64,000 nucleotides of DNA from Thermodesulfobacteriota bacterium (lineage in GTDB: Bacteria; Desulfobacterota; Desulfobacteria; Desulfobacterales; Desulfosudaceae): NCBI GenBank assembly GCA_040753795.1, contig JBFMDX010000002.1, positions 1 to 64,000 on the forward strand, in the 5' to 3' direction. The notes beneath the pieces were generated by a model. It saw only the letters and a program-made list of their open reading frames with translations. It was not told where the DNA came from and made no database searches. The translations under genes were made by a program, and so were the position numbers. Shown here one piece after another: positions 52,028-63,717 of the stretch. Each line of letters opens with the position of its first letter. Position 1 is the first letter of the stretch.

Positions 52028-52273
52028 ATGAGAACCACCATTACCATAGAAAATGATGTGTTGGAACGGGCGAGAGCGATTGCGGCCAAACGGCGGACCC
52101 CGTTCAAAAGGGTCATCAATGAAGCGTTGAGGGCCGGCCTGGACCAGGTGGAGCGGCCTGTCAAAAGCGGACGCTATAAAACAAAACCGCATGCCATGGG
52201 TCTTAAAGCCGGTCGAAACCTGGATAACATCCAGGAGTTGCTGACGCAGATTGAAGGAGAGGATTCCCGTTGA
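52028..52273 (+). CDS. vapB: VapB-family antitoxin
   Basis: The 81-residue protein starts MRTTITIENDVLERARAIAA and continues KRRTPFKRVINEALRAGLDQ, a ribbon-helix-helix of the VapB type. A flexible toxin-binding tail (GRNLDNIQELLTQIEGED) follows. It neutralises VapC and should repress the promoter before it. No ribosome-binding site precedes the ATG, fitting a leaderless message. Its stop overlaps the TTG start of the toxin gene. Confidence 0.9.
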   Translation: MRTTITIENDVLERARAIAAKRRTPFKRVINEALRAGLDQVERPVKSGRYKTKPHAMGLKAGRNLDNIQELLTQIEGEDSR

Positions 52274-52707
52274 TCCTGGTGGACGCCAACATTCTATTGT
52301 ATGCGGAAGACGCGCTGTCCCCGTTTCATCGTCAGGCGCTCGGCTGGTGGGATGATCAGCTTTCCGGGAGCGATCCCGTCGGCCTGTGCTGGCCGGTTCT
52401 GTCCGCCTTTATCCGGATAGGAACCAATCCGCGGGTATTCGAGCATCCGCTCTCTCTGGATCAGGCGATTGCGCGGGTCCAGAGCTGGCTGAATCAGCCC
52501 TGCGCGCGAATCATCCGGCCGACGGAACAGCACTGGACGGTATTTGAAAGGATGCTCAAGGGAGGGCAGGCGGTCGCCAACCTGGTGGCCGACGCGCACA
52601 TCGCCGCCCTGGCCGCGGAACACGGCTGCGACCTGGCCTCAACCGATGCTGATTTTTCCCGGTTTCCCGGCCTGAAATGGTTTAACCCGCTGGCTTTAAA
52701 CCCGTGA
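52270..52707 (+). CDS. vapC: VapC-family PIN-domain toxin
   Basis: The 145-residue protein has the PIN-domain acidic residues: VDANILLYAED (Asp 5), LSAFIRIGTNP with a Glu-free variant of the second motif, ANLVADAHIAALAAEHG (Asp about 108) and LASTDADFSRFPG (Asp about 126-128). It is an endoribonuclease toxin. TTG is the start, overlapping vapB by four bases with GAAGGAGAGG before it. GC content matches the core genes better than the other toxin pairs here, and no palindrome borders it. Confidence 0.9.
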   Translation: MILVDANILLYAEDALSPFHRQALGWWDDQLSGSDPVGLCWPVLSAFIRIGTNPRVFEHPLSLDQAIARVQSWLNQPCARIIRPTEQHWTVFERMLKGGQAVANLVADAHIAALAAEHGCDLASTDADFSRFPGLKWFNPLALNP

Positions 52708-52721
52708 TAAAAGTTTCCCGC

Positions 52722-53393
52722 CTACCCCTTCTTTTTGGCGGCGACCTTCTTTCGGATCCAGTCCAGCCACTGGTCCAGGCCTTCCCCCGTTTTGGACGAG
52801 GTCTTGAATATCGGCATTTCCGGATTGATGCGGTGAATGTTCTCAACCGTCAGGTTGATGTCGTAGTCCAGATAGGCCAGCAGGTCGATCTTGTTAAGCA
52901 GGGCCACGTCGCAGACGCGGAACATGAGCGGGTACTTGACCGGCTTGTCCTCGCCCTCGGTGACGCTCAGCACCACGGCCCGGGCGTCTTCGCCGATGTC
53001 GAACTCCGCCGGGCAGACCAGGTTGCCGATATTCTCCACGATGAGCAGGTCGATCTTGTCCAGGTCGAAATTGGCCGCGGCGGTTTCGATGACATGGGCC
53101 GCCAGGTGGCAGTCGCCGCCGAACTCGTCGGTGTTGACCTGGACCACCTCGGCGCCGGTCACGGCCAGGCGGTCGGCGTCATTGGAGGTGCAGATGTCGC
53201 CCACGATGACGGCGCTGGTCATCTCCGGCATCAGACGCGTCAGGGTTTTCTGCAGCAAGGTCGTTTTGCCGGAACCGGGCGAACTCATGACGTTTAAGAC
53301 AAACACTTTTTTATCCGCGAACTGCTTGCGGTTCTTGGCCGCCATGGTTTCGTTGACGTCCAGGACCCGGCGCACGACTTTGACTTTTTCCAT
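52722..53393 (-). CDS. hypB: hydrogenase nickel incorporation GTPase HypB
   Basis: The 223-residue protein has the P-loop SSPGSGKTTLLQKT (38-51) and VGDICTSNDADRLAVTGAEVVQV. GGDCHLAAHVIETA and LVCPAEFDIGEDARAVVLSVTEGEDKPVKYP-type motifs follow, as in HypB. It delivers nickel to [NiFe]-hydrogenase with HypA, driven by GTP. The His-rich N-terminal store of some HypBs is absent. ATG 53393 has AAGGAGG before it. It follows hypA by 23 bases. No hydrogenase structural gene lies in the window. Confidence 0.95.
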   Translation of the reverse strand: MEKVKVVRRVLDVNETMAAKNRKQFADKKVFVLNVMSSPGSGKTTLLQKTLTRLMPEMTSAVIVGDICTSNDADRLAVTGAEVVQVNTDEFGGDCHLAAHVIETAAANFDLDKIDLLIVENIGNLVCPAEFDIGEDARAVVLSVTEGEDKPVKYPLMFRVCDVALLNKIDLLAYLDYDINLTVENIHRINPEMPIFKTSSKTGEGLDQWLDWIRKKVAAKKKG

Positions 53394-53416
53394 GATTTTC
53401 TGCCTCCTTATTTCTA

Positions 53417-53764
53417 TTAATCCGCAAGCTCCAGGGAGACGATATCCAGTTCCCGGCCGGAAATAATGTCCACCTGGCCACCCTGACATTTGCCGCAAAT
53501 GAAATTCGGGGTCGTGACCGTCCATTCATTTCCGCATGATTTGCAGCGGACGACCACGGGAATTTCTTCGATGGAGAGCGTGGCGCCGGCCAGGGGCGTG
53601 CCCTGAGTGGCGATATCAAAGCAGAAGGTCAGGCTGGCCGGGACAATGGCGGTCAGTTTGCCGGCTCTCAAGTTGACTTTGGCGACCTTGGGGTTCTTGG
53701 CCCCGGCGGGGATGGACGAGACCGCGATATCCACGATCTGCATGGCGATTCCCATTTCGTGCAT
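53417..53764 (-). CDS. hypA: hydrogenase nickel incorporation protein HypA
   Basis: The 115-residue protein begins MHEMGIAMQIVDIA, where His 2 with the neighbouring residues binds nickel. It has a zinc site formed by Cys 74/77 (CKSCG) and Cys 90/93 (CGKC). The length is normal. It hands nickel to the hydrogenase large subunit together with HypB. First gene of the hypAB pair. GAGCC-type spacing leaves a modest ribosome-binding site (AAGGAG before ATG). Confidence 0.95.
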   Translation of the reverse strand: MHEMGIAMQIVDIAVSSIPAGAKNPKVAKVNLRAGKLTAIVPASLTFCFDIATQGTPLAGATLSIEEIPVVVRCKSCGNEWTVTTPNFICGKCQGGQVDIISGRELDIVSLELAD

Positions 53765-53845: not shown

Positions 53846-53990
53846 TAAGGGCGTCTCTAAAATTAGAATTTTGGTTCGAGGTCAAGGCTTGCGAAAATTT
53901 TAACCGCAGGAATACTTGCAGTATTTCGAGGATTAAAATTTGAGCATAACGCCGACATCGAGCCAAAAGGCAATTTTAGAGATGCCCTTA
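53846..53990. repeat. long palindrome P15 of a different family, ending in the sucD stop codon
   Basis: The left arm (TAAGGGCGTCTCTAAAATT, TTTTGGTTCGAGGTC, GCGAAAATTTTAACCGCAGG) pairs with the right arm (CCTCGAAATACTGCAAGT complement, AATTTTAGAGATGCCCTTA) over about 65 bp. The centre is AATACTTGCAGTATT. It lacks the CTGTTTGAG core. The sucD stop codon (TTA on the plus strand, 53988-53990) is its last triplet. It may terminate the suc transcript before hypAB. Confidence 0.88.
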
Positions 53991-54860
53991 CGAAAACACC
54001 CTGGCGCAAAGTTCGCCCAGAGTCCCCAGGTCGCGGCAGACATGAATGCCGGCTTCCTTCATGGCGGCGATTTTGCCTTCGGCCCCGCCGCTCTTGCCGC
54101 TGATGATGGCGCCGGCATGGCCCATGCGCCTGCCCGGAGGCGCCGTCAGCCCGGCAATAAAACCCACCACCGGCTTGGACACCTTTTCTTTGATGAAGGC
54201 GGCGGCCTTTTCTTCGGCGTTGCCGCCGATCTCGCCGACCATGACAATGCCCCGGGTGTCCGGGTCCTTCTGAAAAGCGTCCAGGCAGTCGATGAAATTG
54301 GTGCCGTTGACCGGATCGCCGCCGATGCCCACGCAGGTGGTCTGGCCGATATTCTGGCCGGTAAGCTGGTGGACCACTTCATAGGTCAGGGTCCCGGAAC
54401 GGGAAACGACACCGACGGGTCCGCCGGGCTTGTGAATGCTGCCGGGCATAATGCCGATCTTGGCCTCGCCCGGCGTGATGATGCCGGGGCAGTTGGGACC
54501 AATCAGGCGGGAGCCCGAGCCGTCCAGGATCTTTTTGACGCGCATCATGTCCATCACGGGAATGCCTTCGGTAATGGCCACGACCAGCGGGATGCCGGCG
54601 TCGACCGCTTCCCGGATACCATCGGCCGCGAAGGGCGGGGGTACGAACACCATGCTGCAGTTGGCTCCGGTCGCCTGGACGGCCTCGGCCACGGTGTTGA
54701 ACACCGGTACGCCGTCCATCTCCTGGCCGCCTTTGCCCGGTGTCACCCCGGCCACCACTTTGGTGCCGTAAGCCAGGCATTGCCGGGTATGAAACTGTCC
54801 TTCCTTGCCGGTGATTCCCTGCACCAGCAGACGGGTGTCTTTATTTACGAATATGCTCAT
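53988..54860 (-). CDS. sucD: succinate--CoA ligase, alpha subunit
   Basis: The 290-residue protein has the CoA-binding start [20 protein letters not shown] and [32 protein letters not shown] and the phosphohistidine segment [11 protein letters not shown] (His 248) follow. It pairs with SucC to interconvert succinyl-CoA and succinate with substrate-level phosphorylation, linking the methylmalonyl-CoA branch to succinate. It follows sucC by 48 bases. Its stop codon lies inside palindrome P15. Confidence 0.96.
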
Positions 54861-54908: not shown

Positions 54909-56075
54909 TTACGCGGCCTTTACTGCCTGGGCCACCTTGCGGGCGGCGTCGCTCAGGTTTTCCGCGGCCAGCAGGTTCAGTCCGGAATCGGCCAGAATTT
55001 TTTTGCCGGCCTCCACGTTGGTCCCTTCCATGCGGACCACCAGCGGCACGTGAACGTCAATATTCCGGGCCGCCTGCACGATGCCCTGGGCAAGGATGTC
55101 GCAGCGCAGAATGCCGCCGAAAATATTGATCAGGAGGCACTTGACCTTTTTGTCGCTTAAGATGATGCGGAAGCCGTTCTCAACCATTTCGGCGTTGGCG
55201 CCGCCGCCGACATCCAGGAAGTTGGCGGGTTCGGCTCCGGCCAGCTTGATGATGTCCATGGTGGCCATGGCCAGGCCGGCGCCGTTGACCATGTTGCCGA
55301 CGTTGCCGTCCATGTTGATGTAATTCAGGTTGTACTTGGACGCCTCCACCTCCAGGGGATCCTCTTCTCCGGTATCCCGGTAGGCCAGGATGTCCTTGTG
55401 CCGGAACAGGGCGTTATCGTCAAAGTTGATTTTGGCGTCCAGGGCGACCACCGCGTCCTCGGCCGTGATCACCAGGGGATTGATCTCCACCAGGGAGGCG
55501 TCCAGGTCGACAAACAGGCGGAACAGGTCGCTGACCACCTGGGTGAATTGCTTGACGGCGGCCGCCGGCAGGTTCAGGCCGTAAGCCACCCGGCGGCAGT
55601 GAAAGGCGGAAAGCCCGGACAGGGGATTGACAAAAACCTTGATAATCTTCTCCGGCGTCTTTTCCGCCACCTCCTCGATATCCATGCCCCCGGCCTCGCT
55701 GGCCATGATGACGATGCTGGCCGTTTCCCGGTCGGTGATGATGGACAGGTAAAGCTCCCGGGCGATGTTGACGCCCTGCTCCACCAGCACCTTGCGGACC
55801 AGGGTGCCGCCGGGGCCGGTCTGGGGCGTTACCAGTTGCGAACCGATCAGTTTGCCGGCAAAGGCCTCGGCTTCGTCCGCGGAACGGACCACCTTGACGC
55901 CGCCGCCCTTGCCGCGGCCGCCGGCATGGACCTGGGCTTTGACCACCACCGGAAACCCGCCCAGGGTCCCGGCCGCTTTCCCGGCGTCGGCCGCGTTTTC
56001 CGCCATGACCCCGGAAGGCGTGGGGATGTTGTATTTACGAAACAACTCTTTGGTCTGATACTCATGAATTTTCAT
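54909..56075 (-). CDS. sucC: succinate--CoA ligase, beta subunit
   Basis: The 388-residue protein begins MKIHEYQTKELFRKYNIPTP and has the ATP-grasp part VVVKAQVHAGGRGKGGGVKV. It ends with GGGANAEMVENGFRIILSDK and LLINIFGGILRCDILAQGIV. It supplies the nucleotide-binding subunit to SucD. Length and motifs are normal. I use ATG 56075, with GAGGTTT before it; the frame extends to 56105. It follows the carboxyltransferase/biotin-carrier gene by 80 bases on the same strand. Confidence 0.96.
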   Translation of the reverse strand: MKIHEYQTKELFRKYNIPTPSGVMAENAADAGKAAGTLGGFPVVVKAQVHAGGRGKGGGVKVVRSADEAEAFAGKLIGSQLVTPQTGPGGTLVRKVLVEQGVNIARELYLSIITDRETASIVIMASEAGGMDIEEVAEKTPEKIIKVFVNPLSGLSAFHCRRVAYGLNLPAAAVKQFTQVVSDLFRLFVDLDASLVEINPLVITAEDAVVALDAKINFDDNALFRHKDILAYRDTGEEDPLEVEASKYNLNYINMDGNVGNMVNGAGLAMATMDIIKLAGAEPANFLDVGGGANAEMVENGFRIILSDKKVKCLLINIFGGILRCDILAQGIVQAARNIDVHVPLVVRMEGTNVEAGKKILADSGLNLLAAENLSDAARKVAQAVKAA

Positions 56076-56155
56076 ATAAACCTCATTCTGGCGGCATGGC
56101 GACAACCTCTCGCCCGGTTTTAAGCCACCGTTTTATTCGAATTTTCGCGAGCGGA

Positions 56156-58219
56156 TTAACCGATCACGCACAGCACCGCATCTTTTTTGACGGTATCCCC
56201 GGCTGAAAAATTGATCGCCTTGACCGTTCCGGCGGCCGGTGAGGGCAGGGCGTTTTCCATTTTCATGGCTTCAAGGACCACCACCGTTTCACCTTCGGCA
56301 ACGGAATCGCCCACATTTTTTGCGTACCGGACGATCATTCCCGGCATGGGCGCGGTCAGGGGCGTTCCCTTGGCGCCGTCGGCAGCCTTCGCCGGAGCCT
56401 TTTTCTCCTCCGCTTTGACCGGTGCCGGTGACGCCTTGGGCGAAGCAGCCGGAGCCGCAGGCGCGGCCGCAGTCGGGGCCGACGCGGGAGCCGGCCTGGA
56501 AACCGCCGGCGCCGCCATAACCGGACCGGAACCGATGCGGGCGGCGGCCTGCTGGATGTAGGCAATGGCCGGAGAATCGCCGGTTTCATCCACGCCGACT
56601 TCGTAGTACTCGTTGTCCACAAACACGTTGAAGGTGCGCAAGTGTTCGCTCTTTTTGGGCATGTCCGCCTTTTCCGGCTTGACCACCAGCTTGCCGGCTC
56701 TGGCCTTTGCCATCAGCGTCTCTTCCGTCTTGGCCTCGTCCAGGGTCTTGGCCCGCACGGACTCGGGCGGATTCTCGAATCCGTACTTCCATTTTAAGAA
56801 TTTTCGACCGGTCACGGGATAAAGGGCGTAAATCAGGGTGTCGTCGATGTCCACCGCCAGATCGCTGATCTCGGTCTTGGCTTTTTCCATTTCCGGCTCC
56901 AGGATCTCAGCCGGCCGGCCGGCGAACGGTTCTTCACCCCGGGCGTATCCCTTCAGGGCCTTTTTCTGGACGTCCGGATTGATGGGCACGGCTGTCTTGC
57001 CGTACAATCCGAAACACAGGTCCTTGACCTGATCGGTGATCCGCTGATACCGCTCGCCGCCCTTGTCGAACAGCACGTTGTTGACCGTCTGAACGCCGAC
57101 GATCTGACTGGTCGGCGTGACCAGGGGAATCTGTCCCAGGTCTTTCCGGACCTTGGGCAATTCCTTGTACACTTCGTCCAGTTTGTCCAGGGCGTCCATT
57201 TCTTTGAGCTGGTTAAAAAGATTGGAGAGCATGCCGCCGGGGGTCTGGTGCAGGAGCACGTCGATATCGATGATGGACATTTTGGGCTCGTTGAGCAGAT
57301 GCCGGTACTTGGGCATGATGTCCCTTTCCAGCACGGTGTTGATGGCCACCAGGTGTTTGATGTCAAAACCCGTGTCGCGGTTGGTGCCCAGCAGCGCCAT
57401 GACCAGGGGTTCGATGGCCGGATGGGAGGTGCGGTAGGCATAGGGAGAAAGACAGGTGTCGACGATATCCACGCCGGCTTCCACCGCCTTGAGATGGGAC
57501 ATGGGCGCCAGCCCGGAGGTGAAATGACTGTGAAAATGGATCGGCGGTTTAACCGTTTCCTTCAGTGCCTTGACGATCTGATAAATGTCGTAGGGCGCCA
57601 CCAGTCCGGCCATGTCCTTGATGCAGATGGTGTCCGCGCCCATGGCCTCAAGCTCCTTAGCCTTGGTGACGAAATAATCGACGTTGTAAACAGGCCCGCC
57701 CAGGCGCGGTTCGGTCAGGCTGTAGCAGATGGTGCCCTGAAAATGCTTGCCCATTTTTTTGATCACGGAGACCACGGTCTCAAAGTTGCGGAAATCGTTT
57801 AAGGCGTCGAAGGTCCGGAAAATATCCATGCCGTTTTCAGCGGCCCTTTCCACAAAAACGCGGGCCACGTCATCGGCATAGTTGCGGTAACCCACCAGGT
57901 TCTGCCCGCGCAGCAGCATGGAAAAGGCGGTCTTCTTAAAATAACGCTTCAGGGTCCGGATCCGCTCCCAGGGGTCTTCATTCAGGAAACGGTGCATGGT
58001 GTCAAAAGTGGCGCCGCCCCACATCTCCACGGCCCAGAAACCCACTTCATCCATCATTTCCGCCACCGGGATCATGTCTTCGGTTCTTCCCCGGGTGGCA
58101 AACAGCGATTGATGGCCGTCCCGCAGGGACAGGTCCATTACCTTCAGGGGGTTCTCCGCCTTGGGACGGTCTTTGTCATAGTTCATCTTGGTCATTTTTA
58201 CCTGGCTGTGGTCACTCAT
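56156..58219 (-). CDS. carboxyltransferase 5S-type domain fused to biotin carrier (PycB/OadA-like)
   Basis: Residues ~25-290 form a carboxyltransferase TIM barrel, with LRDGHQSL (32-39), the CIKDMAG Lys 201 and metal ligands HSH at 230-232. The conserved carboxylase domain continues to about 500. An Ala/Pro-rich linker (about 560-620) leads to a biotinyl domain with EAMKMEN, biotin on Lys 653. It transfers CO2 between oxaloacetate/pyruvate and biotin. Beside MmdA-type carboxyltransferase and methylmalonyl-CoA genes it should act as the 5S plus 1.3S parts of a transcarboxylase. Oxaloacetate decarboxylase or pyruvate carboxylase B are alternatives. Confidence 0.92.
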   Translation of the reverse strand: MSDHSQVKMTKMNYDKDRPKAENPLKVMDLSLRDGHQSLFATRGRTEDMIPVAEMMDEVGFWAVEMWGGATFDTMHRFLNEDPWERIRTLKRYFKKTAFSMLLRGQNLVGYRNYADDVARVFVERAAENGMDIFRTFDALNDFRNFETVVSVIKKMGKHFQGTICYSLTEPRLGGPVYNVDYFVTKAKELEAMGADTICIKDMAGLVAPYDIYQIVKALKETVKPPIHFHSHFTSGLAPMSHLKAVEAGVDIVDTCLSPYAYRTSHPAIEPLVMALLGTNRDTGFDIKHLVAINTVLERDIMPKYRHLLNEPKMSIIDIDVLLHQTPGGMLSNLFNQLKEMDALDKLDEVYKELPKVRKDLGQIPLVTPTSQIVGVQTVNNVLFDKGGERYQRITDQVKDLCFGLYGKTAVPINPDVQKKALKGYARGEEPFAGRPAEILEPEMEKAKTEISDLAVDIDDTLIYALYPVTGRKFLKWKYGFENPPESVRAKTLDEAKTEETLMAKARAGKLVVKPEKADMPKKSEHLRTFNVFVDNEYYEVGVDETGDSPAIAYIQQAAARIGSGPVMAAPAVSRPAPASAPTAAAPAAPAASPKASPAPVKAEEKKAPAKAADGAKGTPLTAPMPGMIVRYAKNVGDSVAEGETVVVLEAMKMENALPSPAAGTVKAINFSAGDTVKKDAVLCVIG

Positions 58220-58251: not shown

Positions 58252-58482
58252 CTATCGATGAAACGCCTTTAACTGCATCATGACGCGGTTCTGCATCTGC
58301 GCCTGCCGGCCCTGGATGCCCCAGTTGTTCCGGAACGTGAACGGGCCCTGCTCCAGGGCGGAGGTGCCCCGGGCCGACTCGGCCATTTCCGAAATCACGG
58401 CCATCTCTTCCTGACCGGCGATGTAGGTCATCACCGCCGCGCAGATGGCGGCCCTGACTTTGTTGTTGTTTTCTTTCATCAT
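58252..58482 (-). CDS. small conserved-context protein in the transcarboxylase cluster
   Basis: The 76-residue protein reads KVRAAICAAVMTYIAGQEEM, then SEMAESARGTSALEQGPFTF and RNNWGIQGRQAQMQNRVMMQ. It has one amphipathic N-terminal helix and no membrane anchor. I recognise no named family. The helix with AAICAAVMTYI faintly recalls small subunits of biotin-dependent decarboxylases. Its place between the carboxyltransferase and the biotin-carrier gene suggests an assembly or linker subunit (inference). AGGAGAG precedes ATG 58482; a second ATG is next to it. Confidence 0.75.
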   Translation of the reverse strand: MMKENNNKVRAAICAAVMTYIAGQEEMAVISEMAESARGTSALEQGPFTFRNNWGIQGRQAQMQNRVMMQLKAFHR

Positions 58483-58499
58483 CCGACTCTCCTGGCTGG

Positions 58500-60050
58500 T
58501 TATACCGGAATATTGCCGTGTTTCTTGGGTGGCCGGGTTTCCCGCTTGGTACACATCAACTCCAGGGCCTCACACAGGCGCTGCCGGGTGTGCCGGGGCT
58601 GGATGACCGCGTCCACGTACCCCCGCTGGGCCGCGCAATAGGGATTGGAGAACTGCTGCTTGTATTCCTCGATTTTTTCCTTTCGTCTGGCTGCGGGGTC
58701 TTCGGCTTCCTTGATCTCTTTTCGGTGAATGACATTGGCTGCGCCTTCGGCCCCCATGACCGCGATCTCCGCCGTGGGCCAGGCATAAACCATGTCGGCG
58801 CCGAGATGGCGGGAGCTCATGGCGATATAGGCGCCGCCGTAATCCTTACGGGTGATCAGCAGGAGTTGCGGCACGGACACCTCCGAATAGCACCAGAGCA
58901 GCTTGGCGCCGTGCCGGATGATGCCGCCCCATTCCTGGTCGCTGCCGGGAAGGTAGCCGGGCACGTCGGCGATGGTCAGCAGCGGGATGTTGAAGGCGTC
59001 GCAAAAACGGATGAACCGGGTGGCTTTGTCCGAGGCGTTGATATCCAGGCACCCGGCCAGTACCTGGGGCTGATTGGCGATGACGCCGATGGTCCGGTTG
59101 TTGAGCCGCGCGAAGCAGACGATCATGTTTTTGGCGAAATAAGCGTGAGGCTCGAAGATTTCACCATTGTCCACGATGGCCCGGATGACCGCCTTCATGT
59201 CGTAGGACTGGTTGACGTCATCGGGAATGAGAGTGTCCAGTTCCGGCGCTTCCCGAAAGGGGTCGTCGCCGGTGGCCACGACCGGCGGGTCTTCCATATT
59301 ATTGGAGGGGATATAGGACAGCAGCCGCTTGATCTGCTCGATGGCGTCAAGATCGCTCTCGCAGGCGAACTGGGCCACGCCGCTTTTTTCATTGTGGGTC
59401 ATGGCGCCGCCCAGGTCCTCGAAGCTGATCTCTTCGCCGGTCACGGACTTGATGACTTCCGGGCCGGTGATGAACATGTAGCTGGTGTTCTTGACCATGA
59501 AGACCCAGTCGGTCATGGCCGGGGAATATACGGCTCCGCCGGCGGTGGGCCCCATGATGGCTGAAATTTGCGGGATGACGCCGGAGCACATGGAGTTGCG
59601 GTAAAAAATTTCGCCGTATCCGGAAAGGGCGTCGACGCCTTCCTGAATCCGGGCGCCGCCGGAGTCATTCATGCCGACCATGGGAACCCCGGCTTTCAGA
59701 GCCATATCCATGACCTTGGTAATTTTTCTGGCGTGCATCTCCCCCAGACTGCCGGCCCGGGAGGTAAAATCCTGGGCATAGGCGCAGACCGGACGGCCGT
59801 TGACCAGGCCGTGCCCGGTGATGACGCCTTCGGCCGGTATATCCACCTTTTCCATGCCGAAATTGGTGCAGCGGTGGGTGACGAACATGTCCAGTTCCCG
59901 GAACGTGCCCATGTCGAACAGTGCCTCCAGCCGCTGCCGGGCGGTCAGGCGACCTTTTTCCACCTGTTTGGCCACGGCCTTGTCGCCACCCATGGCCCGG
60001 ACGGCTTCTTCCTTCTGTTTTAATCCCTTGAGCTTGTCAGCAGTACCCAT
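58500..60050 (-). CDS. mmdA: methylmalonyl-CoA/propionyl-CoA carboxyltransferase (MmdA, 12S type)
   Basis: The 516-residue protein has the two crotonase-like halves of acyl-CoA carboxyltransferases: GLVNGRPVCAYAQDFTSRAG, VGMNDSGGARIQEGVDALSG, GPTAGGAVYSPAMTDWVFMV and, later, LLTIADVPGYLPGSDQEWGG and PTAEIAVMGAEGAANVI. It moves CO2 between methylmalonyl-CoA or propionyl-CoA and carboxybiotin. Start 60050 has AAGGAG before it. It ends 17 bases before the small gene at 58482, and the biotin carrier follows, fitting a 12S transcarboxylase subunit. Confidence 0.94.
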   Translation of the reverse strand: MGTADKLKGLKQKEEAVRAMGGDKAVAKQVEKGRLTARQRLEALFDMGTFRELDMFVTHRCTNFGMEKVDIPAEGVITGHGLVNGRPVCAYAQDFTSRAGSLGEMHARKITKVMDMALKAGVPMVGMNDSGGARIQEGVDALSGYGEIFYRNSMCSGVIPQISAIMGPTAGGAVYSPAMTDWVFMVKNTSYMFITGPEVIKSVTGEEISFEDLGGAMTHNEKSGVAQFACESDLDAIEQIKRLLSYIPSNNMEDPPVVATGDDPFREAPELDTLIPDDVNQSYDMKAVIRAIVDNGEIFEPHAYFAKNMIVCFARLNNRTIGVIANQPQVLAGCLDINASDKATRFIRFCDAFNIPLLTIADVPGYLPGSDQEWGGIIRHGAKLLWCYSEVSVPQLLLITRKDYGGAYIAMSSRHLGADMVYAWPTAEIAVMGAEGAANVIHRKEIKEAEDPAARRKEKIEEYKQQFSNPYCAAQRGYVDAVIQPRHTRQRLCEALELMCTKRETRPPKKHGNIPV

Positions 60051-60182: not shown

Positions 60183-61175
60183 TTATGTTTTTGAACGCTT
60201 GTCAAGATAAAAGAGCAACCGTCCGGCGCCCCCGGCGGCCGTAATTTCACCGTCGGCCACCTGCCGGGTGATCTTCTGCAGCTGGTCTCTCACTTCCGGC
60301 AGATCCAGAAAATGAGCCCTGATGCCTTCTTCGATCAGATTCCACATCCAGCGCGTGTTCTGTTCCGAACGTTTCTTTTCGAACTCGCCGGTCCGCATCA
60401 TGGCGGCCTGGTGATCGCGGATCACCTGCCAGATTTGGTCAATACCGATACCGGTCAGGGCGCTGCACGTCAGCACCGGCGGATGCCAGGCCGACCCGGT
60501 CGGCGCCAGCATGTGCAGGGCCGTTTCATAATTTTTCGCGGCCCGTTCGGCATTGGCGACATTCTCTCCGTCGGCCTTGGTGACGACAACGGCGTCGGCC
60601 AGTTCCAGGATGCCCTTCTTGATGCCCTGAAGTTCATCGCCGGCGCCGGCCAGCATGAGCACCAGAAAAAAATCGACCATGCCGGCCACGGCGGTTTCCG
60701 ACTGGCCCACGCCCACGGTCTCGACGATGACGATCTCGTATCCGGCGGCTTCGCAGACCAGGATGTCTTCCCGGGTCTTGGCGGCGATCCCGCCCAGGGT
60801 TTTTCCCGAAGGCGATGGCCGTATATAGGCCCGGGGGTCGGCGGCCAGCTTTTCCATCCGGGTCTTGTCCCCCAGCACGCTGCCGCCGCTGCGGACGCTG
60901 CTGGGGTCTACGGCCAGCACCGCCACGGTGGATCCCCCGGCCGTCAGATGGGTACCCAGCGCTTCAATAAAAACGCTCTTGCCTACGCCGGGCACGCCGG
61001 TCACGCCCACCCGGATCGACTTTCCGGAATGGGGCAGCAGCCCTTCCAGTACCTGACCGGCTGCTTTTTTATGTTCCGGCAGGGAGCTTTCCACCAGGGT
61101 GATGGCCTTGGCGATCATCCGCCGGTTGCCGGCCAGCACCCCGTTGATGTACTCCTCTGGCTGGATGCCCTTCAT
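60183..61175 (-). CDS. meaB: methylmalonyl-CoA mutase-associated GTPase MeaB
   Basis: The 330-residue protein has Walker A GVPGVGKS (60-67), VAVLAVDPSSVRSGGSVLGD (switch region), KTRMEKLAADPRAYIRPSPS, VIVETVGVGQSET and VVTKADGENVANAERA. These are the MeaB/ArgK marks. It protects methylmalonyl-CoA mutase and gates cobalamin loading. Its start overlaps the mutase stop by one base. The 132 bases between its stop and mmdA contain no clear signal. Confidence 0.96.
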   Translation of the reverse strand: MKGIQPEEYINGVLAGNRRMIAKAITLVESSLPEHKKAAGQVLEGLLPHSGKSIRVGVTGVPGVGKSVFIEALGTHLTAGGSTVAVLAVDPSSVRSGGSVLGDKTRMEKLAADPRAYIRPSPSGKTLGGIAAKTREDILVCEAAGYEIVIVETVGVGQSETAVAGMVDFFLVLMLAGAGDELQGIKKGILELADAVVVTKADGENVANAERAAKNYETALHMLAPTGSAWHPPVLTCSALTGIGIDQIWQVIRDHQAAMMRTGEFEKKRSEQNTRWMWNLIEEGIRAHFLDLPEVRDQLQKITRQVADGEITAAGGAGRLLFYLDKRSKT

Positions 61176-63295
61176 CAGGCCCCTTTTTCAAGGACGTTCA
61201 ACACCTGGTTGGCTGAATCCGTGATGACCGTGCCGGGACCGAACACGCCGGCCACGCCCTGCTGATAGAGAAAATCATAGTCCCGGGGCGGAATGATGCC
61301 GCCGACCACGACCTTGATGTTCTCGCCGCCCTCGGCCTTCAGGGCCGCGATCAGCTGCGGCACCAGCGTCTTGTGACCGGCCGCCAGGCTGGAGACGCCG
61401 ACCACGTGGACGTCGTTTTCCACGGCCATGCGGGCCGCTTCTTCCGGCGTCTGGAACATGGGTCCGATATCCACGTCAAAGCCCAGGTCGGCGTATCCGG
61501 TGGCCACCACCTTGATGCCCCGGTCATGGCCGTCCTGTCCCATCTTGACTACCAGGATTCTCGGCTTGCGCCCGTTTTTGGCGGCAAAGTTGTCGGTCCG
61601 TTTGCGCAAGGAGGCGATGATTTCGCTGTTGCCGTACTCCCCGGCATAGATCCCGGAGATGCACTGGGTGGTGGCCACGTAGCGGCCGAAGACCTTTTCA
61701 ATGGCGTCGCTGACCTCGCCCACGGTGGCCCTGGCCCGGATGGCGGGGATACAGGCCTCCAGCAGGTTGCCGCCCTGTTCGGCGCAGCGGGTGACGGCTT
61801 CCAGGGCCTTTTTGACCTGGGCGTTGTCCCGTTTCTGCCGGAGCTCTTTAAGCCGGGCGACCTGCTCGTCGCGCACCGCTTCGGACACTTCCAGGGTTTC
61901 CAGGGGCGTCTCATCCTTGAGCAGGTACTTGTTGACGCCGACAATGGTCTCTTTGCCCTGGTCGATCCGGGCCTGGCGCCGGGCGGCCGACTCTTCGATC
62001 CGCATCTTGGGCATGCCGGACTCGATGGCCTTGGCCATGCCGCCCAGGTCCTCCACCTCTTTCATGATGGCCCGGGCCGCGTTGGCGATTTCAGCGGTCA
62101 GGGATTCGATGTAGTAGGAACCGCCCAGGGGATCGACCACCCGGGTGATCTGGGACTCTTCCTGGACGATGATCTGGGTGTTGCGGGCGATGCGGGCGGA
62201 AAACTCGGTCGGCAGGCTGACGGCTTCGTCAAAGGAGTTGGTGTGCAGGGACTGGGTGCCGCCCAGCACCGCCGACAGGCATTCTAAAGTGGTGCGGATG
62301 ATATTGTTGTAGGGATCCTGCTGGGTCAGGCTCCAGCCCGAGGTCTGGCAGTGGGTTCTCAACATCCGGGAAGTGGGTTTCTTAGGATTGAAACGGCCGA
62401 CGATTTCCGACCAGAGCAGCCGAGCCGCCCGCAGCATGGCGATATCCATGAAAAAATTCATGCCGATGCCGAAGAAGAAGGAGAGCCGCGGGGCAAAATC
62501 GTCGATGGCCAGGCCGGCGTTAAGGGCCGCTTTGATGTATTCCAGGCCGTCGGCCAGGGTGAAGGCGGTCTGCAGCACCGAGTCGGCGCCGGCCTCCATC
62601 ATGTGGTACCCGCTGATGCTGACGGTGTTGTACTTGGGGATGTTGTCGGAGCAGTACTTGATGATGTCGGACACGATCCGCATGGACGGTACCGGCGGAT
62701 AGATGTAGGTGTTGCGGGTCAGGTATTCCTTTAATATGTCGTTCTGGATGGTTCCCTGAAGCTGGGCCTGGGCTACGCCCTGTTCTTCGGCGGTGACGAT
62801 GTAGGCGGCCAGGATGGGCAGGACCGCGCCATTCATGGTCATGGAAACGGTCATCTTGTCCAGCGGGATGCCGTCAAACAGGATCTTCATGTCCTCGACC
62901 GAGTCGATGGCCACGCCGGCTTTGCCCACGTCGCCGGCCACCCGGGGATGGTCGGAATCGTAGCCGCGGTGGGTGGCCAGGTCAAAGGCGACCGACAGGC
63001 CCATCTGACCGGCGGCCAGGTTTTTCTTGTAAAACTCATTGGACGCCCTGGCGGTGGAAAACCCGGCATACTGCCGGATGGTCCATGGCCGGTAAGCGTA
63101 CATGGTGGCCCGGACGCCGCGGGTAAACGGGTCAAGGCCGGGGGTCGTATCCGTGCCCTCCAGCCTGTCCAGGTCTTCCCGGGTGTACAGCGGTTTGATG
63201 GTGATGCCTTCCGGCGTCAGCCAGTTCAGGGTCTCCAGGGGCTTGTCTTTCAGGTCTTTCTGGGCGAGTTCGCTCCATTTTTTCACGTCAGCCAT
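61175..63295 (-). CDS. mutB: methylmalonyl-CoA mutase (catalytic plus cobalamin domains)
   Basis: The 706-residue protein has the substrate barrel ([20 protein letters not shown], then [19 protein letters not shown] and [17 protein letters not shown]). The C-terminal B12 domain carries [15 protein letters not shown] (His 590 is the lower cobalt ligand) and [17 protein letters not shown]. It interconverts R-methylmalonyl-CoA and succinyl-CoA. The single-chain form with its own B12 domain is the active homodimeric/large-subunit type. It follows the epimerase gene by 20 bases and is joined to meaB by a one-base overlap. ATG has AAGGAGAAAAG before it. Confidence 0.97.
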
Positions 63296-63315: not shown

Positions 63316-63717
63316 TTATCGTTCACACAATTCCACCAGCACGCCGCTGGTCGCCTTGGGATGCAGGAAGGCGATCTTCGCTCCACCGGCGCCCATGCGG
63401 GGCTTTTCATCAATCAATTGGATCCCCTTGGCCTTCAATTCCGCCAGGGCCGCCTCGATATTATCGACCCGGAAGGCCACATGCTGGATGCCTTCGCCCT
63501 TTTTTTCGATGAACTTGGCGACGGGCCCGTCCGGAGCGGTTGACTCCAGCAGCTCCACTTCGCTTTCCCCCACCGGCAGAAAAGCCGTGGTGACCTTCTG
63601 CGCTTCCACGGTTTCGGTGCCTTCAAAGGAAAGCCCCAGTACATCCGACCAGAAATTTTTCCCTTTTTCGATGCTGTTGACCGCGATGCCGAGATGATCG
63701 ATCTTTAACAGTTTCAT
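63316..63717 (-). CDS. mce: methylmalonyl-CoA epimerase (VOC fold)
   Basis: The 133-residue protein begins [20 protein letters not shown] (metal ligand His 8). [40 protein letters not shown] and the C-terminal GVLVELCER follow, with the remaining metal ligands in QH, LLE and VEL. It interconverts R- and S-methylmalonyl-CoA, joining the carboxyltransferase product to the mutase. Length is normal. GGAGCTGAA precedes the ATG. It follows the aminotransferase gene at the window edge by 23 bases. Confidence 0.95.

Follow-up and report, generated by a model that had tools for sequence, protein, structure and literature searches.

The window, by which we mean the whole 64,000-nucleotide stretch analyzed here, holds a propionate cluster (Table 1) in which a 12S-type carboxyltransferase and a 5S carboxyltransferase with its biotin carrier share one cluster with methylmalonyl-CoA pathway genes, and biotin carboxylase is absent between them. 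The best NCBIfam model for the 12S gene is TIGR01117 (mmdA), with a score under the model's cut-off, and the frame beyond the succinyl-CoA synthetase beta chain is one that we take to encode the alpha chain. After the propionate cluster come hydrogenase-maturation genes for a HypB-like (cobW/HypB) protein and HypA (PF01155) at 52722-53764 on the minus strand. On the plus strand (52028-52707), an 81-aa protein overlaps a 145-aa PIN-domain protein (PF01850, E 4.8e-13), with the look of a VapBC-type toxin-antitoxin pair; the 81-aa partner has no Pfam match and is presumably a VapB-type antitoxin.

Table 1. Features of the propionate cluster, in the order of transcription.
Feature	Position	Strand	Basis or remark
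Glyoxalase-fold protein, probably methylmalonyl-CoA epimerase	63316..63717	-	Fold matched; function suggested by place
Methylmalonyl-CoA mutase	61175..63295	-	Domain match
MeaB-type GTPase	60183..61175	-	Domain match
12S-type carboxyltransferase (MmdA-like)	58500..60050	-	Carboxyl_trans PF01039; start at 60050 probable
AGGAG, likely ribosome-binding site of small gene	58489..58493	-	From sequence, upstream of ATG
Small gene, putative adaptor	58252..58482	-	76 aa and stop, ATG start; soluble OadG/MmdD-tail-like protein
N-terminal helix segment, residues 8-27, KVRAAICAAVMTYIAGQEEM	58402..58461	-	K8, A16, V17, Y20 invariant in 34 members; aligned to OadG tail helix; putative binder of segment before biotin domain
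Variable linker, residues 28-52	58327..58401	-	34-member alignment
W-box, residues 53-74, NWGIQGRQAQMQNRVMMQLKAF	58261..58326	-	W54, R59, M63, R66, Q70 invariant; motif also in OadG tails beside 12S; putative 12S-docking motif
5S carboxyltransferase fused to biotin carrier	56156..58219	-	HMGL-like, PYC_OADA and Biotin_lipoyl
Association-domain-like segment FNVFVDNEYYEVGVDETG just before carrier	56579..56632	-	Proposed helix docking site; role suggested by OadA (PMC7274780)
Biotin (biotinyl-lipoyl) domain	56162..56359	-	Domain match
Succinyl-CoA synthetase beta chain	54909..56105	-	Domain match
Succinyl-CoA synthetase alpha chain	53988..54860	-	ORF; named from sequence and place

The small gene starts 17 nt past the 12S stop codon, ends 32 nt ahead of the 5S start and encodes the sequence MMKENNNKVRAAICAAVMTYIAGQEEMAVISEMAESARGTSALEQGPFTFRNNWGIQGRQAQMQNRVMMQLKAFHR. 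The mechanical ORF at this place is longer, spanning 58252-58554 and beginning with GTG; the homologues inspected start near the ATG of the 76-aa version. The initial annotation had described a 76-residue ORF with a good ribosome-binding site between the 12S and 5S/carrier genes, and the ORF, the AGGAG and the neighbors all confirm it. The annotation also remarked that no known family includes the protein, and this is true of Pfam and NCBIfam: there, as in PDB sequences, searches returned no useful match. One copy of the gene was detected in this genome.

At E ≤ 0.01, all 3 sampled genomes of the family have a homologue, as do 215 of 291 of the order and 232 of 291 of a class-level draw, which overlaps the order draw. 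The 34 members that we aligned share nine invariant residues (K8, A16, V17, Y20, W54, R59, M63, R66 and Q70) and a common layout, consisting of a short Ala-rich helix, a linker whose length and sequence vary, and, at the C terminus, a conserved box. Read by eye, the alignment shows a charged stretch at the N terminus, followed directly by the short Ala-rich helix, with no long hydrophobic run. At the first 34 loci (at two of which, L018 and L034, the small ORF was identified by a separate reading of the sequence), 5S lies downstream in 34 and 12S upstream in 33; at L016, the contig ends before 12S. A single-sequence scan of the contigs of named genomes gave no match; a profile scan succeeded, yielding 107 loci in records labelled as Desulfobacterales, as genera of this kind, or merely as Deltaproteobacteria or Proteobacteria. 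Among the best 80 of these 107 loci, a set that has at least 12 loci in common with the first 34, the order 12S, small gene, 5S on one strand is found at 69. Of the remaining 11, 5 have no 12S within 600 nt, 3 have no 5S, and 3 are truncated, 2 of them on the 12S side and 1 on the 5S side. Thus, the gene is neither missing from most clusters nor located elsewhere, which are the outcomes that had been named at the outset as counting against a role in this enzyme, and 3 of the 11 exceptions are merely contig-cut. Given its shortness and the lack of a match to any named family, the frame might be thought a leader peptide or a chance ORF without protein function. But the protein is conserved, with invariant residues and a fixed place, and pS exceeds pN against both relatives compared (0.77/0.31 and 0.47/0.30); we rejected this reading on conservation and regard it as scarcely credible. 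The small gene is real, conserved and unannotated. An apparent natural fusion of the small protein in one genome (G112), a 355-aa open frame, was rejected as an out-of-frame reading across 12S.

What might such a protein be? OadG/MmdD is the scaffold subunit of Na+-pumping biotin decarboxylases. That the present cluster has neither OadB nor OadG, as had been claimed for it, is borne out: the search for OadB in the window gave nothing better than a match at E 0.46, and the one PF04277 match listed for this genome is an OadG on another contig (C28), where the order is 12S, OadB, OadG, BCCP and the 12S is 57% identical to that of the cluster studied here. The small protein and the tail of this OadG, MVAAVAMALHLEMSGPAVIKSDLGTDENQNSWSLYGRQKIMSDRMQVFKRHSHV, are laid out alike, and the W-box form WGxxGRQxxMxxR is common to the small protein and OadG/MmdD tails. 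In hhalign, the 34-member family matches six OadG tails with probability 94.9 and E 4.7e-8 over 20 columns in the W-box. Against 19 OadG tails from 12S clusters, 67 columns align, helix on helix and box on box, with a score of 31.7 (E 5.9e-6), compared with 10.6 (E 0.039) against OadA-type tails and 0.6 against a third tail type; as a control of the profile comparison, 60 column shuffles were made, and the 52 with a readable score reached at most 6.1. The helix part aligns with OadG tails less well than the box. Among 717 ORFs from the window and four loci of the same genome, the small protein and the genome's own OadG are reciprocal second-best matches. The small-protein profile places OadG at rank 2 (E 0.008, next ORF 0.83), and the OadG-tail profile places the small protein at rank 2 (E 0.0021, next ORF 0.092); because the latter profile includes this OadG and those of two other genomes (G032 and G091), matches to these are uninformative, and rank 2 is the actual test. 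Kinship between the small protein and OadG/MmdD tails at their C-terminal end is, by sequence comparison, well supported.

The likeness to OadG, MmdD and GcdD (PF04277) comprises an Ala-rich helix, a linker and a W-box in the same order, and a 12S-type carboxyltransferase as neighbor. The small protein differs in having no membrane helix and no OadB in its cluster, where 5S stands instead; nor does it match the PF04277 model, which is likewise not listed among the families for the 34 members. One could see in it what is left of a membrane decarboxylase, still coupling the soluble enzyme to OadB made elsewhere in the genome, since an OadB/OadG cluster exists in this genome and the tail is related to OadG. 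However, OadG and OadB meet in the membrane, according to the portion of PMC7274780 available to us, and the small protein lacks a membrane helix; moreover, the small gene is present in G001 and G002, of the same family, which gave no OadG match at E ≤ 1e-4. We consider such coupling quite improbable.

The two halves of the tail are distributed differently among OadG proteins. We read 60 OadG neighborhoods, 59 picked from PF04277 matches plus the cluster of this genome, and scored the box as W...[GA][RWKQ]. With group labels that were assigned after the neighborhoods had been inspected, the box is present in 16 of 19 OadG tails near 12S, in 0 of 15 beside an OadA-type enzyme (three of which, L202, L206 and L210, were so counted although a 12S lies ~4 kb further on) and in 0 of 24 of the third tail type; L230 and L239, which have the box but for which 12S was not found in the region, were dropped before the count. 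In the three boxless OadGs of 12S clusters, the box is degenerate. The W-box idea was drawn from L117, L121, L123 and L124, and L123 is the same OadG as L153, without which the count becomes 15 of 18. Fisher's test gives p 4.5e-7 for the association of box and 12S, with loci taken as independent although clusters share ancestry. Two gene orders, 12S-OadG-OadB and 12S-OadB-OadG, occur among the 12S pump clusters, so a single copied operon does not account for the pattern, although the clusters may well share ancestry. Against a strict rule joining box and 12S, the 12S genes beside the OadA-type pumps of L202 and L206, whose clusters are of the L210 kind, have no box partner that we could read within ~200 and ~330 nt downstream, respectively.

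The Ala-rich helix, by contrast with the box, is seen in both OadG types, beside 12S and beside OadA-type enzymes. In the portion of PMC7274780 available to us, the OadA-binding part of the OadG tail is an amphipathic helix, the proposed binder of the association domain. Taken together with the tendency of the box to follow 12S, these observations make it plausible, by sequence pattern and analogy, that 12S is where the box docks, with the helix docking on the stretch that precedes the biotin domain in the 5S fusion. A strict pattern for association strands before the carrier fits 21 of 67 relatives, and a looser one, written after the strict one, fits 60 of 67. Models of read-through chains from Desulfonema magnum (L095) are of low confidence, both for 12S plus small protein (mean pLDDT 62.8, small part 30-43) and for small protein plus 5S (mean pLDDT 37.5, small part 24-40); they carry no information on binding and show only that the small protein has two helices, located as expected.

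A different division of labor would have the small protein stabilize or regulate 12S alone, as an assembly factor or inhibitor, with no contact to 5S or the carrier. Five of the nine invariant residues fall in the box, which is also the part that aligns best with OadG, and one genome (L073/L210) has, directly after 12S, a 62-aa protein with the box and without the helix, as might be expected of a partner of 12S only. But the other four invariant residues lie in the Ala-rich helix segment, and the five loci where 12S is not adjacent retain the gene with 5S. Moreover, L078 and L093 are loci where the catalytic half of 5S has been lost; there, a short chain of association segment and carrier comes after 12S and the small gene, so that the association segment is kept next to the small gene. 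We judge a role confined to 12S to be unlikely. The genome with the box-only protein also encodes a 708-aa HMGL-type protein with two tandem biotin-type domains, ahead of OadB and a 12S gene.

The 24 loci of the third kind of OadG (L199, L207-L209, L211-L214, L216-L221, L223-L225, L227-L229, L231, L232, L236 and L237) encode proteins of 131-222 aa with the tail form HPHLTI..LR..G.L....G.F.W, winged-helix-like by eye. At 22 of the 24, the gene lies just ahead of OadB, and a carboxyltransferase match in the region was found solely for L220 and L225. In these two (from G028 and G123), 12S, a divergent small ORF, 5S (50-51%), BCCP, third-kind OadG and OadB stand in a row, possibly a transcarboxylase and a sodium pump in one cluster.

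How closely the small gene follows 5S can be judged from genomes that the single-sequence search had missed. We re-examined 30, these being the missed genomes among those listed (20 of the 76 missed in the order draw and 20 of the 59 missed in the class draw). The 5S domain as query gave E < 1e-100 in 12 of them (G007, G011, G022, G028, G032, G060, G087, G091, G123, G162, G179 and G196); of the 12, 8 have a small gene that the profile found, adjoining that 5S in 7, and the 18 genomes without such a 5S gave none at E < 1e-3. In G022, the profile-found small gene adjoins a second, distant 5S-type gene (29% identical), and a similar ORF was read by eye in the first cluster. This genome has two 12S clusters (L275 and L284); in each, 12S is followed by a divergent small ORF of its own and by a distant 5S-type gene (42% and 29%). 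In four of the 12 genomes (G007, G032, G060 and G091), 12S was not found in the stretch before 5S. Two of these, G032 and G091, have 5S with no adjoining 12S or small gene, and after the only 12S found in them at E ≤ 1e-100 come an OadG, whose tail has the same helix-linker-box layout, and then OadB. The other two, G007 and G060, have 5S with no 12S beside it, and the small gene was not found; five 12S-like loci (44-61% identical) gave no match to either tail profile at E < 0.1 in the flanks examined. Because no box partner was found for these 12S-like genes, our confidence in the adaptor reading is slightly lower than it would otherwise be.

Several known systems offer points of comparison. 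AccE, the epsilon subunit of actinobacterial acyl-CoA carboxylase (PF13822), is a short accessory subunit of a 12S-type carboxyltransferase complex. Homology to AccE would imply a similar role, and 3 of the 34 members match PF13822, the best at E 0.025; these matches are weak, however, and the other 31 have none at E ≤ 1. Further, a 12S paralogue of this genome (C10) is followed by a 674-aa protein read as biotin carboxylase, with no convincing family match among the ORFs there. We rejected AccE membership because the Pfam cut-off for PF13822 was not reached, and the family was not reported for the small protein of this genome; kinship with AccE seems to us very improbable.

Another parallel may lie in MmdE, the epsilon subunit of the methylmalonyl-CoA decarboxylase of Veillonella and Propionigenium, which is encoded by a separate small gene. 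The Veillonella protein is small and resembles the end of MmdD. A Desulfofundulus figure legend, the part of PMC11206085 at hand, lists mmcH (alpha), mmcI (epsilon, of methylmalonyl-CoA decarboxylase), mmcJ (gamma) and mmcL (transcarboxylase 5S) in one cluster, so that the mmcI "epsilon subunit" of Gram-positive clusters would be, by analogy, a literature precedent for the small protein. Compared by description alone, our small gene is separate, like MmdE and the mmcI of Gram-positive propionate oxidizers, and it lies next to a 12S-type alpha, whereas the carrier in our cluster is fused to 5S. Propionibacterium transcarboxylase (12S, 5S and 1.3S) has the same two carboxyltransferases but carries biotin on the separate 1.3S subunit. 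According to excerpts of PMC2909200, its operon contains a fourth coding sequence, which bears the annotation of a C-terminal part of a 12S entry; with this, too, we can compare the small protein by description alone. For GcdD, the available part of PMC7145394 proposes that the C-terminal region links to GcdA. In Desulfobacterium autotrophicum, the methylmalonyl-CoA pathway genes are operon-like, and the passages of PMC2702500 open to us do not name a small subunit of this enzyme; the portions of the open-access literature that we saw gave no account of the small protein in Desulfobacterales.

We think it probable that the small protein is a soluble, epsilon-like scaffold subunit of the methylmalonyl-CoA:pyruvate (propionyl-CoA:oxaloacetate) transcarboxylase, joining 12S, 5S and biotin carrier. 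It would correspond to the cytoplasmic tail of OadG/MmdD minus the membrane helix. Its C-terminal W-box would dock on the 12S carboxyltransferase, its N-terminal Ala-rich helix on the strands resembling an association domain that lie between the 5S and biotin domains, and the variable linker could allow the biotin arm to swing between the 12S and 5S active sites. Where the tail of a membrane pump ties the carboxyltransferase to OadB, the small protein would tie 12S to 5S. The initial annotation had proposed a short subunit tying carboxyltransferase to carrier, and this idea appears largely right, given the tail kinship with OadG/MmdD, which has that role in membrane decarboxylases.

More tentatively, and with doubts that outweigh our confidence, the W-box may be a docking motif for 12S-type carboxyltransferases that work without biotin carboxylase, borne either by a membrane-anchored OadG, giving a sodium pump, or by a soluble adaptor, giving a transcarboxylase. 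The anchor would then decide between pump and transcarboxylase, and lineages could switch by gaining or losing it.

If the scaffold reading is right, the transcarboxylases of these sulfate reducers have an overlooked fourth subunit with no Pfam or NCBIfam model, and one modular scaffold would be common to biotin decarboxylases of the soluble and the membrane kind. The gene, detected in 215 of the 291 genomes sampled from the order, would thereby gain an annotation, a defined motif, the W-box, and an assigned partner.
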